From Chloroflexota bacterium (GTDB lineage: Bacteria; Chloroflexota; Anaerolineae; Aggregatilineales; Phototrophicaceae), in assembly GCA_003696565.1 (NCBI GenBank), contig RFHA01000129.1, forward strand, positions 1 to 53,874: a DNA stretch of 53,874 bases, read 5' to 3'. Below, in pieces: positions 20,726 through 32,848 of this stretch. Every line of letters begins with the position of its first letter. Position 1 is the first letter of the stretch. The notes under the pieces were generated by a model, which saw only the letters and a program-made list of their open reading frames with translations, did not search any database and was not told the DNA's origin. A program made the position numbers and the translations under genes.

Positions 20726-21997
20726 ATGAATATTATCTTTCGTGAAAAAGATATCCCGAATATTCGTGAATTTGATGTTTATGTGAAGCACGATGGCTAT
20801 AAGGCGTTTGAAAAAGCCTTGAGGATGAAGCCTATCGACGTGATTAACGAGGTAAAAGCATCAAATTTACGCGGACGGGGTGGGGCGGGTTTCCCTACTG
20901 GGGTCAAGTGGAGCTTTATCCCCCAGAGTGAGCCGATTAAATATGTGGTGGTTAACGCTGATGAGAGTGAAACCGGCACGTTTAAAGATCGGCAGATTAT
21001 GGAAAATAACCCCCATCAATTGATTGAAGGGGCGTTGATCGCTGCTTGGGCAATTCAAGCGACGGCGGTTTATATTTATTTGCGGGGCGAATTTTGGGAT
21101 ATTGCCCATGCATTAGATAAACATATTGAAGATGCACGCCAAGCGGGCTATGTGGGTGAAAACATCAAAGGAAGTGGTTGGTCTTGTGAAGTTTATACTC
21201 ACTTAGGCGCAGGTGCCTATATTTGTGGTGAAGAAAGTGCGTTGCTTAACAGCTTAGAGGGTAAGCTGGGGCAACCCCGTGTACGTCCACCATTCCCAGC
21301 ACAAAAAGGCGGTGGATTGTATTCTGAACCGACTGTTGTCAATAATGTGGAAACCCTGGCAAATGTGCCGTTTATCATTATGAATGGCGCGGATGAATAC
21401 AAGAAAATTGGCACAGAACAAAGCACTGGCACCAAGATTTTTTGTGTCAGCGGTCATGTTAACAATCCGGGTAACTTTGAGTTCCCAATGGGGGAGATTA
21501 CCTTCCGTCAATTAATCTTTGATCATGCGGGGGGTATTCCTGATGGGAAGCAAATTAAGGCAATTTTGCCCTCTGGTGGTTCTGGTCCAATTGTTCCTGC
21601 CACAGATGAGATACTAGATACACCTCTGACCTATGAAGATTTGCAGAAACATGGCACAATTTTAGGGTCAGCGTCTATTATCATTTTGGATGAAACCGTC
21701 GATATTACTTGGGCGGCATCAAAAATGACGAAGTTCTTTAAGCATGAAAGCTGCGGGAAATGCACACCATGCCGTGAAGGAACCTATTGGTTAGATAAAG
21801 TGTTGGATCGTATCTTACGTGGAGAAGGTAAACCTTCTGATGTAGATTTGATCAACAATATCGCGGCGAATATGCAAGGGGTCACCTTGTGTGCATTAGG
21901 AGATTTTGCTGCTAACCCGATTTTGGCGACCATCAAGCATTTTCCAAATGATTTTATGGCGCATGTCGGCGGTGAACTGAAGGCAGCGGGTGATTAA
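20726..21997 (+). CDS. nuoF: NADH-quinone oxidoreductase subunit F
   Basis: 423 residues. NuoF binds NADH and FMN and carries cluster N3. GRGGAGFPTG (50-59) is the FMN/NADH loop, followed by NADESETGTFKDR and CGEESALLNSLEG. The [4Fe-4S] ligands are C343, C346, C349 (ESCGKCTPCREGT) and C389. The last eight bases overlap the GTG of the next small gene. Confidence 0.96.
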   Translation: MNIIFREKDIPNIREFDVYVKHDGYKAFEKALRMKPIDVINEVKASNLRGRGGAGFPTGVKWSFIPQSEPIKYVVVNADESETGTFKDRQIMENNPHQLIEGALIAAWAIQATAVYIYLRGEFWDIAHALDKHIEDARQAGYVGENIKGSGWSCEVYTHLGAGAYICGEESALLNSLEGKLGQPRVRPPFPAQKGGGLYSEPTVVNNVETLANVPFIIMNGADEYKKIGTEQSTGTKIFCVSGHVNNPGNFEFPMGEITFRQLIFDHAGGIPDGKQIKAILPSGGSGPIVPATDEILDTPLTYEDLQKHGTILGSASIIILDETVDITWAASKMTKFFKHESCGKCTPCREGTYWLDKVLDRILRGEGKPSDVDLINNIAANMQGVTLCALGDFAANPILATIKHFPNDFMAHVGGELKAAGD

Positions 21998-22382
21998 CGT
22001 GAGTGACGAGCAACAAACGGTAGCAGAAGTTGAAGAAACACAACTGCCGCCGCGTGTGGGCTTTTGGGGGCGGTTACGGCGGTGGGTATTCCCCACAGTA
22101 GATGACCTGCGGGCATATTATCATCAACAGTTGGTTGAATTAGATGATGCTGTCGCCCTGCACCCGGAAAGCCCAACAAATTATCTGTTACGGGGTGAGG
22201 TGTATTTGATCATGAATCAACCCCAAATTGCCCTGGCAGATTTTGAGAAAGCGTTTGAATTAGCATCGGAACACCTGGAAAAAGCCCATTGGGGCATTAT
22301 CATGCAGGTTGTTCAGGATCGCGCTCAACGAGGTTTATTAAAAGCAAAACAGCGTTTGTGGAGAGATGTGAATGTCCGATAA
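21990..22382 (+). CDS. TPR-like small protein embedded between nuoF and nuoG
   Basis: 130 residues from GTG 21990, with GAAGG upstream; a second GTG at 21999 is possible. It overlaps nuoF by 8 bases and nuoG by 11, so its translation is tied to both. Residues ~18-40 hold an amphipathic basic stretch (FWGRLRRWVFP). Residues ~48-95 fit one to one and a half TPR units (NYLLRGEVYLIMNQPQIAL then ADFEKAFELA). There is no signal peptide or membrane helix. It is not a canonical complex I subunit. A role in assembly of, or as an added subunit on, the NADH-input module is inferred from position alone. Confidence 0.75.
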   Translation: MINVSDEQQTVAEVEETQLPPRVGFWGRLRRWVFPTVDDLRAYYHQQLVELDDAVALHPESPTNYLLRGEVYLIMNQPQIALADFEKAFELASEHLEKAHWGIIMQVVQDRAQRGLLKAKQRLWRDVNVR

Positions 22383-24851: not shown

Positions 24852-26450
24852 ATGAACCGGAAAATTCTAGGCATTCCATTATGGGTTCCGCTGGTCTCTG
24901 CTGGGTTTGTGGTGCTGCTACTGGTTGTCTCGCTTTTGTCTAACTGGGGCAGTGTATTGAACGCTGGAGAAGATGTGTTGGAATTTATCTTCCGTCCAGA
25001 CCAGCGCGTAGATGAAGTTGTACAATGTTCTGAATCAGATGGCTGTGTGTTTGTCCATTCCATCATCTATTCGGCAGTGCTGCTGTTTGTGTTACTAACG
25101 GGGTTTGCATATACCACCTTGTTGGAACGGAAGTTTATTGCGTGGTTTCAGCAGCGGGTTGGTCCAAACCGAGTTGGTCCTGGCGGCTTATTGCAACCAC
25201 TTGCTGATGGTATCAAGCTGATTTTCAAAGAAGATATTTTGCCCACACAGGTTAATAAAGTCGTGTATCGCCTAGCTCCGATGATCAAAGTGATACCGGT
25301 GCTAGTGGTGTTGGCGGTTATTCCACTGGGCCCAGAAATTATTGTCCCGTGGTTTGATGGCAATTGGTACCAAGTGCCACTGCACTTGATTGATCCGGGT
25401 GTAGGGGTATTGTGGATTTTGGGAATCACTAGCTTGGCGACTTATGGTGTGGTGTTGGCTGGCTGGTCTAGCAGCAATAAATACTCAATGCTTGGTGGAA
25501 TGCGTGCCTCGGCACAGATGGTCAGTTATGAGCTGAGCATGGGGATCACCTTTGCTGTTCCGGTGTTGTTGGCTGGCAGTTTGTCAATTGGGACGATTGT
25601 GCAAGATCAAAGTGGGATGTTCTGGAACTGGTATATTTTCCAGAATCCGCTGGCAGCAATCATTTTGATGATCGCATTAATTGCTGAAACAAACCGTGCC
25701 CCGTTTGATTTACCAGAAGCGGAACAAGAATTAACCGCTGGGTATATGACAGAATACAGTGGGATGAAATTCGCCTTGTTTATGATGGCAGAATATCTGG
25801 GGATGATTGGGGTTAGTCTGATTGCATCCTCATTGTTCTTGGGCGGATATAATGACGGTTTTGGGCTGGTGGATCATATCCCGATTTTGGGTCCGTTAGT
25901 TTTGACGGGTAAAGTTGTTCTGTTGTTAATTGGGTTTATCTGGATTCGTGCGACACTGCCACGCTTGCGTTATGACCGGCTTATGATGTTTGGGTGGAAG
26001 GTGATGCTCCCGCTCTCTATTATCGCCGTGATTTGGACTGCTGTGGCGGTTATCATTGGTGAAGAACTTGGCAGTGGGGCGTATATTGTGTTCTCTGGCA
26101 TGATGATTGTGTTATTGATGGCTGGTTCAGTATTCTTTTTGGGTCGCCCGCAGCAAGACGATACCACGGATGACGTAGAAGATGATCCGATTATCACGGG
26201 TGAACGTGATGGGTTGGGTTATGCGTTGTTGATGGTTTTGGCAGGACTTGCGGGTATACCCTTTGCTCTTTACAATGCTACCGCGCCCTTGGTGAAGTTA
26301 GGCTATAATTTGACGATTGTTCCGTTGCTAGCCTTGCTTAACATCGGTGAAAATCGTGATAAGGTGAAACAATCGATCGTTTCTGCGGCGGAATACATCG
26401 CTGGACCACAAGATGCTGCTGATCAACCGAAGTTAGGAAGTGGGGATTAG
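24852..26450 (+). CDS. nuoH: NADH-quinone oxidoreductase subunit H, with N- and C-terminal extensions
   Basis: 532 residues, against roughly 320-430 usual for the family. NuoH joins the peripheral arm to the membrane arm and lines the quinone channel. The canonical core runs from about residue 68 (FERK-type LLERKFIAWFQQRVGPNR) to about 402, with AETNRAPFDLPEAE at 278-291. Before it lie ~65 added residues with an extra membrane helix (9-30) and a loop with two Cys (C59, C65). After it lie ~130 residues with an extra helix (410-430), an acidic linker (436-452) and one or two more hydrophobic segments (457-476, 484-498). The core identity is firm; the extensions have no recognised homology. Confidence 0.94.
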   Translation: MNRKILGIPLWVPLVSAGFVVLLLVVSLLSNWGSVLNAGEDVLEFIFRPDQRVDEVVQCSESDGCVFVHSIIYSAVLLFVLLTGFAYTTLLERKFIAWFQQRVGPNRVGPGGLLQPLADGIKLIFKEDILPTQVNKVVYRLAPMIKVIPVLVVLAVIPLGPEIIVPWFDGNWYQVPLHLIDPGVGVLWILGITSLATYGVVLAGWSSSNKYSMLGGMRASAQMVSYELSMGITFAVPVLLAGSLSIGTIVQDQSGMFWNWYIFQNPLAAIILMIALIAETNRAPFDLPEAEQELTAGYMTEYSGMKFALFMMAEYLGMIGVSLIASSLFLGGYNDGFGLVDHIPILGPLVLTGKVVLLLIGFIWIRATLPRLRYDRLMMFGWKVMLPLSIIAVIWTAVAVIIGEELGSGAYIVFSGMMIVLLMAGSVFFLGRPQQDDTTDDVEDDPIITGERDGLGYALLMVLAGLAGIPFALYNATAPLVKLGYNLTIVPLLALLNIGENRDKVKQSIVSAAEYIAGPQDAADQPKLGSGD

Positions 26451-27054: not shown

Positions 27055-28350
27055 ATGTCAATAGAAGTGATTTTATTTCTTATAATTGGTTCTGTATCAG
27101 TCTTATCAGCTTTGATGATGCTGATTAGTAAGGAAGCGGTACACAGCGCACTGTATCTGATTTTGAACTTTGCCTGTATTGCCATCCTCTTTTTGATGCT
27201 GGATGCACCGTTTTTGGCGATGGTTCAAATCGCGGTTTATGCTGGTGCCATTATGGTCTTGTTCTTGTTCGTCATTATGCTTTTAGGGGCGGATAAGGCA
27301 AGAGAGGAATTGCGCCAGTTCAAGACCGTGTTTGCCGGAGGTGGGGTGTTGGCTCTCGGTTTGATGCTGATGCTAGGAGCCTTCTTTATCTCTGCTGGGA
27401 CAGACGATATTCAACCTATACCGGAAAACCCACAGGTACGTGTCCTCAATGCCTTGACCAGCTTCCCTAGTGCGGATTTCTATTTACTGAATGAAGCTGG
27501 AGATGTGGTAGCAACCTTTGAGGGAGTTCAGTTTGGTACGCCGGAAGAAGTGCCGCCTTTTGTCTCTGTTGAGCCGGGTACATATATTTTGCGTGTTGCT
27601 AATGCCGGTGAGGATCGTTCTTTACCGGTGACTTCTCAAACGCCCTTGACGCTTGAAGCGGATCAGGATGTGACAATTGTGGCATATGGCACGTTAGGTG
27701 CGGCAATGCTGGCATTACCGGAAGATATGAGCTACCTGGAAGGGAATACCGGGCGTTTGGCGTTGGTGAATACGACTGAAACGCCACTTGCTCTGATCGA
27801 TGTTGGGTCAGATTTTGAACTCAACGATGAAAACGAGCTAGAAACGGCAGAGGTGATCCTCCCCAATTTAGCACCGGGGGATGTCTTTGTTGCGGAATAT
27901 CGCGCAGATACCCCTTATTGGGCATTTGTAGAAACCACGCCAGAAGGTGAATTGACGGATCGGATTGTGTTACGCCTGCGTGGGTTTGTTATCCACGGCG
28001 GACGTTCCAACCTGTTGGTGGTTGGTACCGAACGCGGTGTTGAAAACACGCTGTATCCGGTGGCGATTAAATTTGTCACACCGCTGAACCCGGCTGCTGG
28101 TAGCCCGGAACAAATTGGTGCATCTTTATTTGTTGATTATGTGCTGCCATTTGAGCTTGTCGCGCTTTTGCTACTGGCGGCAATGGTTGGCGCGATTGTA
28201 TTAACGCAACGCAGCGGGGTTAAGCCAAAGCCTGGTCGTCCAACGCGCCGTAAGGTCAGTCGTCCATTGACCAGCGTTATCGCGACACAAACTGGGCAGC
28301 AGGATGTGATTGGTGAACCTGCGCAGCTTAATGAACCAGCTGGTGATTAG
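27055..28350 (+). CDS. nuoJ: NADH-quinone oxidoreductase subunit J with inserted tandem DUF4397-like domains
   Basis: 431 residues from ATG 27055 (AGGA upstream), against about 160-200 in most bacteria. TM1-TM4 lie in residues 2-115, including the conserved TM3 (MVQIAVYAGAIMVLFLFVIM). TM5 is at 362-385 (YVLPFELVALLLLAAMVGAI), as in normal NuoJ. Between them sit ~240 extra residues. The first half (127-215) has the DUF4397 pattern: VRVLNA, a D-x-Y strand, PGTYILRV, then LTLEADQDVTIVAYGTLG. The second half (~233-325) repeats it more loosely (RLALVNTT, LPNLAPGD, NLLVVGT). NuoJ topology puts the TM4-TM5 loop outside the cytoplasm. A basic, Pro-rich cytoplasmic tail ends the chain. Confidence 0.92.
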   Translation: MSIEVILFLIIGSVSVLSALMMLISKEAVHSALYLILNFACIAILFLMLDAPFLAMVQIAVYAGAIMVLFLFVIMLLGADKAREELRQFKTVFAGGGVLALGLMLMLGAFFISAGTDDIQPIPENPQVRVLNALTSFPSADFYLLNEAGDVVATFEGVQFGTPEEVPPFVSVEPGTYILRVANAGEDRSLPVTSQTPLTLEADQDVTIVAYGTLGAAMLALPEDMSYLEGNTGRLALVNTTETPLALIDVGSDFELNDENELETAEVILPNLAPGDVFVAEYRADTPYWAFVETTPEGELTDRIVLRLRGFVIHGGRSNLLVVGTERGVENTLYPVAIKFVTPLNPAAGSPEQIGASLFVDYVLPFELVALLLLAAMVGAIVLTQRSGVKPKPGRPTRRKVSRPLTSVIATQTGQQDVIGEPAQLNEPAGD

Positions 28351-28675: not shown

Positions 28676-31237
28676 ATGGAAAACTTAGCACAACTTGCAC
28701 CGTTGATTATCCTTTCTCCGGCAATTGGCGCATTCATCAACTTCTTTTGGGGTGCGCGGATGGGGGAACGGGCATCTGCCTTGGTGGGGCAGGTTGCCTC
28801 TGGATTATCATTTGTGGTCGCTGTTTGTTTGTATTTGTATCTGGTCAATAACAATTTTGTGCCAGCTGTGATTGATCCACCTTTGTTAGATAGCTGGATT
28901 CGGATTGAATCGGCTGGTTTAGAAATTGCTTGGCAAACGCGGGTGGATACACTAAGCGTTTCGATGATGCTCTTTGTGACGTTCGTCGGCACGCTGATTC
29001 ATATCTATGCGGCTGGCTACATGCACGGTGATGAGCGTTTTTCTCGCTTTTTCGCTTATTTAAATATGTTCCTCACCTTTATGCTGATCTTGATTTCCGG
29101 CAATAACTATCTGATGATGTTTGTCGGTTGGGAAGGCGTGGGGCTATGTTCCTATTTGTTGATCAGCTTCTGGTGGGATAAACCGAACGGTGTTGGCTGG
29201 AAAAACAGTGACGCGGGACGCAAAGCATTTATTGCCAACCGTGTTGGTGATTTTGGCGTGCTGATGGCAGTCTTTTTAATGTTCTGGGCTTTTGGTACGC
29301 TGGATTTTTATAAGCCTGGAGAAATTGTTAATCCAACTGCTGGTCAACATCATGGTGATGAACCTCATGCTACTGGCGATACGCATGGCGAAGAAGCAGA
29401 AGATGCTCATGGTGCAGAAGAAGATGCACACGGTGAGGATGGTGAAGCTGCTGCTGAAAGCGTCATGTTTGTTTTTGCTGGTGATGTCCCCGCTACGTTT
29501 GAGGGAGAGGGGGATGGACATGGTGAGGATACCGCTGCGCACGGTGAAGAAACCGCTGCACACGGTGAGGATGCTGCACATGGCGAAGAAGCGCATGGTG
29601 TAACAGAACCATTCTTATATTACACCGACATCAAAGATGGCACAGCCGAGCTGAATCAGTTTGGTGTGTTTAATCAGGTGCAATATTATGTGGCACTGGA
29701 TGAGACTGAAGATGTTGAGTTTGAGCTGGGTCCAATCAAGTTTGAATTAGAGACTTTGTTGGTCATCATCACGTTGTTTATGTTGCTAGGGGCAACGGGG
29801 AAATCAGCACAAATACCATTATTTGTTTGGTTACCGGACGCGATGGCTGGTCCAACACCGGTTAGTGCGTTGATCCATGCGGCAACGATGGTGACGGCAG
29901 GTGTTTATATGATGGTACGTTCCAACGTGCTGTTTTATAACGCGGAATTGACCTCAATTATCGTCACAATCGTTGGGTCTACAACGGCACTTGTCGCGGG
30001 CTTTATTGCAATTGCCCAGTTCGATATTAAGCGTGTTTTAGCATATAGTACCGTCAGCCAGTTAGGTTTTATGGTGGCGGCGGTTGGGCTAGGTGCTTAT
30101 GTGGCGGCGATGTTCCACATGATTACCCATGCCTTCTTTAAGGCGTTGCTGTTCTTGGGGAGCGGCTCAGTCATTCATGGCATGGAGCATGGACATCACC
30201 ATGTTGCGCATCATGATGGGCATGGCGATGAGCATCATCATGAAGATGAGTTTGACCCACAGGATATGCGCAATATGGGTGGCTTAAGCAAGCAGATGCC
30301 TATCACCTATTGGACCTATCTCATTGGGACACTAGCACTAGCGGGTATTTATCCGTTAGCGGGTTTTTGGTCTAAAGATGAGATTTTGGCAGATGCTTGG
30401 ATCGTCGGATTTGAAGACGGGCAGTTGAAGGGCTTTATTGCATTGGGCTTTTTGATATTAGCTGCTGGCTTCACCGCATTTTATATGTGGCGACAAATTG
30501 AGATGGTGTTCCATGGTAAGCCACGTACCGAAGCAGCTGCCCATGCGCCAGAAAGCGCACCGTCTATGGTGATCCCGTTGGTGATCTTGGCGTTCTTTAG
30601 TGTGTTTATTGGGTTTATCAACCTACCAAGTGGTTTGGGTTTCCCCTTTACGTTGGGGTTTGAAGGCTCTTTAGGACTGCATGGGTTAGGGAACTTCTTA
30701 GAACACAGTATTGCCAAGTTCCACCTGCCAGACTTCCAGCCGTTGATTGCGATCACCGCAACTGCGATTGGTTTAGGGGCGATCTTCTTCGCTCGGTCAA
30801 TTTATGGTGGTGTGAAGGCGATCAATGCTGATGGTAAAGACCCCTTTGAAGCCGATGAGAACATTGCGCCGATTTGGCAAATGGCACATGGACGGTTGTA
30901 TTGGGATGAGCTTTACTTTGCCGTCATCATCAACCCCTATATTCGCATTGCACGTTTCCTGGCGAACGTGGTTGACTGGGACTTCCTGCATGATTACTTC
31001 CATGATTCCGTCATTACACGCGGATATAAAGCGATGGGAGAACTACTTGCTAAACCGTTTGATTTAGGTATTATCGATGGGGCAGTTAACGGTGTTGGCT
31101 GGGTAGTCCGCCAGGTGAGTGGGTCAATGCGTCGTATTCAAACTGGTTATGTTCGCACTTATGCTGTGGCGTTACTGCTCGGTGTGGTGCTTGTGGTTAT
31201 TGTCATGTTGCTGCCGCTGTTACAGCAAATTGGTTAG
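28676..31237 (+). CDS. nuoL: NADH-quinone oxidoreductase subunit L with a His/acid-rich insertion
   Basis: 853 residues, against roughly 610-680 usual. NuoL is the distal antiporter-like proton pump with the lateral helix. Key residues are E153 (VGWEGVGL) and K376 (ATGKSAQIPL). After TM6 (GTLDF, ~210) come ~145 extra residues to ~358, dominated by repeats of A-H-G-E-[ED]. They also hold two short hydrophobic or aromatic patches (VMFVFAGDVPATF, FGVFNQVQYYVAL). By helix counting this loop is on the outer face. A second His-rich loop (about residues 500-530) replaces the short loop before GGLSKQMP and should be on the other face. The lateral helix and last TM close the chain. Confidence 0.94.
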   Translation: MENLAQLAPLIILSPAIGAFINFFWGARMGERASALVGQVASGLSFVVAVCLYLYLVNNNFVPAVIDPPLLDSWIRIESAGLEIAWQTRVDTLSVSMMLFVTFVGTLIHIYAAGYMHGDERFSRFFAYLNMFLTFMLILISGNNYLMMFVGWEGVGLCSYLLISFWWDKPNGVGWKNSDAGRKAFIANRVGDFGVLMAVFLMFWAFGTLDFYKPGEIVNPTAGQHHGDEPHATGDTHGEEAEDAHGAEEDAHGEDGEAAAESVMFVFAGDVPATFEGEGDGHGEDTAAHGEETAAHGEDAAHGEEAHGVTEPFLYYTDIKDGTAELNQFGVFNQVQYYVALDETEDVEFELGPIKFELETLLVIITLFMLLGATGKSAQIPLFVWLPDAMAGPTPVSALIHAATMVTAGVYMMVRSNVLFYNAELTSIIVTIVGSTTALVAGFIAIAQFDIKRVLAYSTVSQLGFMVAAVGLGAYVAAMFHMITHAFFKALLFLGSGSVIHGMEHGHHHVAHHDGHGDEHHHEDEFDPQDMRNMGGLSKQMPITYWTYLIGTLALAGIYPLAGFWSKDEILADAWIVGFEDGQLKGFIALGFLILAAGFTAFYMWRQIEMVFHGKPRTEAAAHAPESAPSMVIPLVILAFFSVFIGFINLPSGLGFPFTLGFEGSLGLHGLGNFLEHSIAKFHLPDFQPLIAITATAIGLGAIFFARSIYGGVKAINADGKDPFEADENIAPIWQMAHGRLYWDELYFAVIINPYIRIARFLANVVDWDFLHDYFHDSVITRGYKAMGELLAKPFDLGIIDGAVNGVGWVVRQVSGSMRRIQTGYVRTYAVALLLGVVLVVIVMLLPLLQQIG
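29518..29598 (+). repeat. Short tandem repeat coding for HGE-type heptads in nuoL
   Basis: Units that begin CA[CT]GG[TC]GA repeat at decreasing lengths of 21, 21, 18 and 15 bases, coding HGEDTAA, HGEETAA, HGEDAA and HGEEA. The regular period and similar codons suggest growth by slippage or unequal exchange. Confidence 0.75.
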
Positions 31238-31249
31238 GAGCTTTAAGCG

Positions 31250-32848
31250 ATGGAATTTAGTTCAAGCCTTTCGCTCACAACGATTACGCTCTTCTTGCCG
31301 ATGGTGGGATTCACAATCCTGCTGTTCATGAATGAGCAGAAAGACAAAGAAGCGATCAAATGGACGGCATTTGGCTTTAGTGTTGCGACATTCATTGCAT
31401 CATTGCTGATGGCGTTCCAGTTCGATAACAACGACTCTGGGCTGCAATTAGCACAACGTATTAACTGGTTGCCAAGCCTGGGGATCAGTTATTTTGTCGG
31501 CGTGGACGGGTTGAGTATGCTGTTGGTGCTGCTCTCAACGGTCATCATGCCAATTGCCATTTTTGCCTCGTTTAACGCAGGGGTAATTGAAGAACGCGGG
31601 CGCGTGAAACTGTATTATCTGTTCATGTTGCTGCTAGAATGGGCGATGATCGGCGTGTTTGTGGTTCAAGACCTGATCATCTTCTATATTTTCTGGGAAG
31701 TGACACTGGTGCCGATGTATTTCCTCATCGGTATTTGGGGCGCAGAGAACCGCGTATATGCTGCTGTGAAGTTCTTCTTGTATACAATGGCGGGGTCTGT
31801 TTTGATGCTGCTTGCACTGCTGTACGTTGGTGGGCAAGCGGGGACGTTTGCCGTACCGGAGATTGTGGCACAAGTCCAAAGTGGGCAATTGAGCTTCCCA
31901 ATGGACGGTATTTTTAGCACACAGTCATTCCTTTTCTTGGGCTTCTTGATTGCCTTTGCCATCAAAGTGCCGGTTTGGCCCCTGCACAGTTGGTTGCCGG
32001 ATGCACACGTGCAAGCCCCAACGGCTGGCTCTGTCATTCTGGCGGGCGTGCTGCTGAAGATGGGGACTTATGGTATGGTACGCTTCTGCTTACCGATGTT
32101 CCCACAAGCTAGCGTAGAGTGGGCACCGATTATTGCTGCGCTTGGTGTAATCGGCATCATTTATGGTGCATGGGTCAGCTTTGCCCAAACAGACATCAAG
32201 AAATTGGTTGCTTATTCCTCTGTTAGCCACTTGGGTTTTGTTGTGTTGGGCATTTTCTCCCTGACTTCAGCAGGTATTCAAGGCGCAACCCTGCAAATGA
32301 TTAGCCACGGTGTTAGCACTGGCGGGTTGTTCTTGCTGGTTGGGATGCTTTATGAGCGTCGTCACACCAAATTGATGGCGGCATATGGCGGTATCTGGAA
32401 AGTGATGCCGTTGTTTGGTGGTATCAGCTTGGTGGTATCACTTAGCAGTATGGGGTTACCAGGGCTTAACGGCTTCGTAGGTGAATTTACCATTCTGCTT
32501 GGTACACTTGGCAGTGATGTACTTGGTACGTTATTCGCCTTGTTTGCCACTGCCGGTGTGATTATGGCTGCGGTCTATATTCTCTATATGTTCCAAAAAG
32601 TTTATATGGGTGAAGTAGACAAAGCAGAGAACAAGAACTTGCCAGACATGAATTGGCAAGAAGTGGCGGTGATGGTACCTATCCTATTGCTGATTTTCTG
32701 GATTGGGTTACAGCCATCAGCTTGGTTCGATGTCATGGATGCTACAGCTAACGCATTGGTCAACCAACTGCAACCGCATATTGAAGCGGTTAAAAATAGT
32801 GGGGTACCAACTGCTTTCCATGATTTAATGATGCATATTTGGGCTTAG
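31250..32848 (+). CDS. nuoM: NADH-quinone oxidoreductase subunit M
   Basis: 532 residues, about 14 membrane helices, normal length. NuoM is an antiporter-like proton pump. E150 (IFYIFWEVTLVPMYF) and K239 (AFAIKVPVWPLHSWLPDAH) are the conserved TM5 and TM7 charges. GGAG precedes the start; the gap to nuoL is 12 bp. No His-rich or DUF4397-like insertion is present here. Confidence 0.96.
   Translation: MEFSSSLSLTTITLFLPMVGFTILLFMNEQKDKEAIKWTAFGFSVATFIASLLMAFQFDNNDSGLQLAQRINWLPSLGISYFVGVDGLSMLLVLLSTVIMPIAIFASFNAGVIEERGRVKLYYLFMLLLEWAMIGVFVVQDLIIFYIFWEVTLVPMYFLIGIWGAENRVYAAVKFFLYTMAGSVLMLLALLYVGGQAGTFAVPEIVAQVQSGQLSFPMDGIFSTQSFLFLGFLIAFAIKVPVWPLHSWLPDAHVQAPTAGSVILAGVLLKMGTYGMVRFCLPMFPQASVEWAPIIAALGVIGIIYGAWVSFAQTDIKKLVAYSSVSHLGFVVLGIFSLTSAGIQGATLQMISHGVSTGGLFLLVGMLYERRHTKLMAAYGGIWKVMPLFGGISLVVSLSSMGLPGLNGFVGEFTILLGTLGSDVLGTLFALFATAGVIMAAVYILYMFQKVYMGEVDKAENKNLPDMNWQEVAVMVPILLLIFWIGLQPSAWFDVMDATANALVNQLQPHIEAVKNSGVPTAFHDLMMHIWA

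Follow-up and report, generated by a model that had tools for sequence, protein, structure and literature searches.

What is a long acidic and histidine-rich segment doing on the outside of a proton-pumping subunit, and how did it come to be there? As a rule, the core membrane subunits of complex I keep their outer face to a minimum. In the window analysed here (the whole stretch of 53,874 nucleotides from a Chloroflexota bacterium), the nuoL gene nevertheless encodes a protein of 853 amino acids whose sixth and seventh transmembrane helices (TM6 and TM7) are separated by such a segment. The identity of the gene is clear: it sits within the nuo gene cluster, its product scores above the curated cut-offs of NF005141 (636.7 bits against 556) and of NCBIfam NDH_I_L (632.5 against 407.5), and its predicted fold resembles that of E. 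coli NuoL (7z84_L; Z 46.2, rmsd 2.0, 544 residues). Among 40 relatives the pump residues E153, K376 and H401, i.e. the conserved TM5 Glu, TM7 Lys and TM8 His, are invariant, and K567, the TM12 Lys, is nearly so. The features discussed below are collected in Table 1. Elsewhere in the cluster, between nuoF and nuoG, there is also a 130-aa TPR-like ORF (21990-22382), whose TPR matches are weak and all under curated cut-offs.

Table 1. Features of nuoL and of the neighbouring nuo genes in the window
Feature	Coordinates	Strand	Details
nuoH	24852..26450	+	extra N-terminal 61 and C-terminal 125 residues
nuoJ with enlarged TM4-TM5 outer loop	27055..28350	+	
Tandem beta-sandwich (DUF4397) insert in NuoJ	27433..28083	+	model residues 126-342; profile, AlphaFold, Foldseek
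nuoL	28676..31237	+	853 aa; profile and fold matches
TM6-TM7 insertion, outer face of NuoL	29309..29746	+	residues 212-357
Disordered acidic/His-rich linker	29357..29611	+	residues 228-312; AlphaFold, composition
HGE[DE] array	29519..29593	+	unit lengths 21-21-18-15 bases
Ordered cap ahead of TM7	29612..29746	+	residues 313-357; AlphaFold
Second His-rich NuoL loop, TM11-TM12	30179..30286	+	residues 502-537; cytoplasmic by charge; separate from the outer insertion
NuoM 10-residue insertion	31880..31909	+	residues 211-220, just before TM7 (motif placement)

Position and two-part anatomy of the insertion

A preliminary description, made from the letters of the sequence, had reported a His/Asp/Glu-rich insertion at 29309-29749 and had placed it on the outer face by counting helices, and both statements hold. 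About 139 extra residues are present in frame between TM6 and TM7; in the alignment with Thermus Nqo12, residues 213-351 are without counterpart, and the composition of residues 207-357 (39 D/E, 11 H and 3 K/R) is indeed acid- and histidine-rich. The insertion faces the outside of the membrane, as indicated by the distribution of charges, with basic R/K residues in loops 1, 5, 9, 11 and 13, on the presumed cytoplasmic side, and mostly few or none in the loops on the opposite side, by the periplasmic location of the corresponding ND5 TMH6-7 loop in the Paracoccus structure (PMC11522691), and by a predicted fold equal to that of E. coli NuoL. Neither the loop nor its ordered part matched any Pfam family or any PDB sequence; hits to cytochrome c oxidase subunit 6 were weak (E 0.7) and were taken as noise.

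Single-chain AlphaFold models, that of NuoL using 40 relatives, divide the insertion into two parts. The linker is predicted to be disordered, with pLDDT below 50 at residues 228-262 and 269-310, and it is followed by a cap, in which pLDDT reaches 79-94 for most of residues 313-357. The latter coincides with the structured-looking part suspected earlier near residues 312-358. It is predicted to comprise a helix (331-344) and then a beta-hairpin (348-351/354-357) located directly before TM7, and its residues G330, F332 and G352 are nearly invariant in the 40 relatives. Both parts can be recognized in the relatives, where a variable stretch rich in D/E/H/A/G is joined to a conserved segment like LGVFGQAERxxxxGxxVxFGPFSLPIETV. 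In one relative, L058, the cap itself is interrupted by an insertion of its own, about 40 residues long (L058:5600-6000).

Distribution and enlargement of the partner subunits

Every genome of this family and of this order with a readable NuoL has the loop; among the named relatives, most are MAGs that carry the label Anaerolineae, Anaerolineaceae or Chloroflexi. On a tree calculated for 87 NuoL cores, from which the loop columns were excluded, the distribution of the loop takes a single change leading to 71 rows, which form one order-level lineage of Chloroflexota (SH-aLRT 90); it was gained once, with no later loss in the sample. In 150 genomes of the class, the loop was absent from the matches outside the order, as judged by match extents and ORF lengths: these NuoL matches mostly start near query residue 360 and lie in ORFs of mostly 640-800 aa. 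One member of the clade, L066 (JAPUDW010000428.1), is labelled Bacteroidetes and encodes NuoL and NuoJ of the Anaerolineae type; it is probably a mislabelled bin. The genome of the window encodes also a second complex I (L057, G000:C184:18000-30000), the NuoL of which has an ordinary TM6-TM7 loop, so the insertion is a trait of one enzyme and not of the membrane proteins of this organism generally.

In the loop lineage NuoM, NuoH and NuoJ are all enlarged. NuoH has 532 aa, compared with about 335-367 aa in relatives that lack the loop, and its C-terminal extension holds further hydrophobic stretches. The insert of NuoJ is a confidently predicted folded domain: it matches DUF4397 (PF14344; 41.6 bits against the gathering cut-off of 30.6), a DUF4397 match is found in the TM4-5 outer loop of all 38 aligned NuoJ relatives (E <= 0.001), AlphaFold predicts two beta-sandwich lobes with pLDDT mostly 93-97, and Foldseek finds its best matches among solved folds in the extracellular domains of PepT2 and PepT1 (5a9i, E 4e-10). 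DUF4397 is abundant in the order, with 14 matches in the genome of the window, but it is absent from two genomes of an early-branching family; the donor of the NuoJ domain was therefore likely a protein already resident in the lineage. NuoJ ORFs of the 150 genomes mentioned above mostly encode about 170-290 aa.

On the tree the NuoJ insert also takes one change, nested in the clade of the loop (65 rows, SH-aLRT 100), and like the loop it is nowhere lost among the 87 rows. The early branches (L048/L054, L049 and L050-L052) possess the acidic NuoL loop, while NuoJ is short in those where it is readable (L048, L049, L050 and L054). A dependence of the loop on the NuoJ domain, considered separately, found no support: the early branches pair the loop with a short NuoJ, and the independent-pairs test, which comprised one pair, had no power. 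The order of the two gains bears also on the idea that the loop, by itself or jointly with the NuoJ domain, is a docking element for a partner on the outer side, e.g. alternative complex III, a cytochrome or the envelope. Such a role would fit the appearance of a folded outer domain of NuoJ within the loop lineage and the enlargement of NuoH, but on the tree the NuoL loop is older than the NuoJ domain, and we regard docking as distinctly unlikely.

We favor a reading of the insertion, held with confidence about evenly balanced between belief and doubt, as a lineage-specific accessory element on one of the two complex I enzymes, composed of a structured cap and a disordered acidic linker. Within this accessory element the linker, which connects TM6 with the cap, would serve as a hydrophilic tether or brush of strongly negative charge.

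Evolution of the linker, its repeats and its histidines

The two parts evolve in very different ways. In nine close pairs, the linker has 17.0 indels per 1000 residues, the core 0.62 and the cap none, i.e. the rate in the linker is 27 times that in the core, and omega is 0.148 (0.109-0.191) for the linker, 0.060 for the cap and 0.052 for the core. The cap is therefore constrained as strongly as the core. The variation in length between strains that had been anticipated from the repeats is evident at the level of species: by one measure the loop has 41-147 aa across the relatives, and in close relatives it differs by at most 29 residues, with duplications visible, for instance, between L074 and L102.

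The repeats themselves proved to be partly as described. The preliminary description had regarded the HGE[DE] units, encoded by segments of shrinking length (Table 1), as slippage-like. Six HGE[DE] words occur in the loop of the window, compared with a mean of 0.08 and a maximum of 2 in 5000 shuffles of the loop, which rules out chance composition alone. At the same time, the units share codons at a rate of 0.48 against 0.43 under synonymous resampling (P=0.35; 29 comparisons, low power), as expected from the codon usage of nuoL, so repetition is demonstrated for the protein sequence, while recent slippage of this array, examined as its source, is unsupported. In L058, to which the window is closest on the tree, the variable part is only 39 residues long, with a single histidine and no HGE array. 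The earlier account had named a close relative without the segment and with an unchanged complex I as a case that would speak against it, and L058 represents such a case in part, as it is without the His/acid array and has intact genes for NuoJ and NuoM.

To learn what is retained in the linker, 83 single-base replacements in twelve pairs were compared with the expectation at kappa 2. D/E swaps make up 22% of the changes versus 5% expected (about four times the neutral rate), charge changes are depleted (22% versus 36% expected, p=0.006), K/R changes are depleted as well (5% versus 14%, p=0.01), and so are hydrophobic changes; however, aligners favor D/E mismatches in low-complexity sequence, which may reduce omega and exaggerate the number of D/E swaps. 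The retention of histidines in these replacements goes in the same direction and is not significant. Of the 70 loops, 69 have a negative net charge (DE 0.232, KR 0.031). The linker is thus kept acidic and hydrophilic by selection, with neither its sequence nor its length kept, although the alignment may bias the counts toward conservative changes. Its charge is not strictly required, since the linker of L056 is short and neutral and L058 has lost most of it.

These figures can be weighed against the simplest alternative, a tolerated, unconstrained outer loop that has grown by repeat duplication and serves mere solubility. The high indel rate of the linker, the large in-frame length changes among close species and the tandem arrays, which are 4.5 times denser in TM6-TM7 loops than in the rest of nuoL and whose periods are all divisible by three, are what this alternative would lead one to see. 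It accords poorly, however, with the omega of the linker and its charge-biased substitutions, with the conservation of the cap, and with the persistence of the loop throughout the sample; besides, a detectable tandem array is found in only eight of the 70 loops and that of the window has no excess of shared codons. We consider it rather unlikely. As sequence and length of the linker drift while negative charge is kept, it probably acts, as part of the accessory element, by bulk properties, which would leave the outer surface anionic, hydrated and free of obstruction.

The histidines had suggested two more specific roles, namely binding of divalent metals and buffering of protons. The former has in its favor that the loop of the window contains 11 His together with 39 acidic residues, but clustered histidines are depleted across the 70 outer loops relative to shuffles: HxH occurs 4 times versus 26 expected, HxxH 6 versus 25, and HHxH-type motifs 0 versus 3. 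The content of histidine is not conserved either. Metal binding by the His/acid runs of the outer loop is therefore highly improbable, and a candidate metal-binding His-rich outer loop, for which clustered histidines had been the test, was rejected. A second His-rich loop of NuoL, between TM11 and TM12 (EHGHHH...FDPQDM), is shared by some relatives that lack the outer loop. It contains 30% His, and in contrast to the outer loop it is enriched in HxH (174 versus 113 expected) as well as in HxxxH. If either loop of NuoL binds metal, its sequence makes this cytoplasmic one the better candidate.

Buffering leads to the idea of a proton or cation antenna, in which an acid/His brush near the proposed exit of NuoL would raise the local proton capacity on the outer side and speed the release of protons or retain them close to the membrane. 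The antenna draws on the proposal that NuoL is the sole exit for all four protons (PMC10212512) and on the suggestion that acidic outer segments serve alkaliphile cytochrome c as a proton capacitor (PMC12457358), and it agrees with the conserved negative charge and with a His content of 7.7% in the linker versus 0.9% in the NuoJ inserts. Yet carboxylates do not buffer at neutral pH, and the loops of L049, L050, L051, L052, L056 and L058 have no more than one histidine each; as L058 has one and L051 and L052 have none, a role based on histidine cannot be general, and the array is missing from L058, the nearest relative. The proposed buffering is weakened by the histidines, which are nearly absent from L051, L052, L056 and L058 and whose retention is not significant. 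Judging from these sequences, His buffering is not required, an antenna, perhaps acting through carboxylates, is unlikely, and any effect of the linker on local protons and cations would be minor at most.

Comparison with known systems and significance

The closest parallel to the cap is in complex I of Paracoccus denitrificans (PDB 8qby; PMC11522691), where the TMH6-7 loops of ND4 and ND5 form beta-hairpins; a hairpin is predicted here as well, outside by the charge pattern. By analogy with these hairpins, the cap most likely lies packed against the outer surface, stabilizing the distal arm. ND5 of Paracoccus also has 44 disordered periplasmic residues modelled by AlphaFold with very low confidence (PMC11522691), but they are located in the TMH14-15 loop, whereas here the disorder, which is longer (about 80 residues), and the hairpin are joined in the TMH6-7 loop. 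Since the cap has no PDB match and the TM6-TM7 loop is short in related Anaerolineae, the two hairpins are likely independent in origin, as far as sequences can tell.

Other likenesses are looser. The G-loop of E. coli NuoG (94 residues) and the C-terminal extensions, which stabilize the enzyme (PMC8357420), are likewise lineage-specific insertions in core subunits, but the G-loop is in the peripheral arm, ordered and with mapped contacts, whereas the insertion described here lies on the outer side and is for the most part disordered. The proton-capacitor segment of alkaliphile cytochrome c (PMC12457358) is also long, acidic and on the outer membrane face, and the acid excess expected of such a segment is present in the NuoL loops; it belongs, however, to another protein, is Asn-rich, and its role with protons is a hypothesis too. 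Finally, the NuoJ insert shares with the extracellular domain of PepT1/PepT2 (PDB 5a9i) two beta-sandwich lobes placed in an extracellular loop (TM-score 0.73 by target length), but at 10% identity and in an unrelated carrier protein this likeness of fold shows no common function.

The NuoL loop is thus not a new kind of system, as lineage-specific insertions in core complex I subunits are already known. The more surprising part is the folded domain of NuoJ, and the stepwise remodelling of the outer face would surprise a specialist. In the open-access literature searched there is no description of the NuoL loop, the NuoJ domain or the enlargements of NuoH and NuoM in complex I, which is not proof of absence, and the papers in it that name DUF4397 do not, by title and abstract, treat complex I. 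The boldest reading, that the outer face has been rebuilt as a functional module in which an anionic brush and cap at the proton exit of NuoL act together with the folded, two-lobed NuoJ domain to retain protons or to dock the next complex that consumes protons or accepts electrons, seems to us improbable; if it were true, the outer surface would take part in energy coupling. If, on the other hand, the loop is purely structural, it would be another case of core subunits taking over the stabilizing role of supernumerary subunits. The stepwise acquisition of an acidic NuoL loop and then of a two-domain NuoJ insert amounts to an experiment of nature on what complex I tolerates and needs on its outer face, and it bears also on whether surface charge near the proposed exit of NuoL affects pumping.
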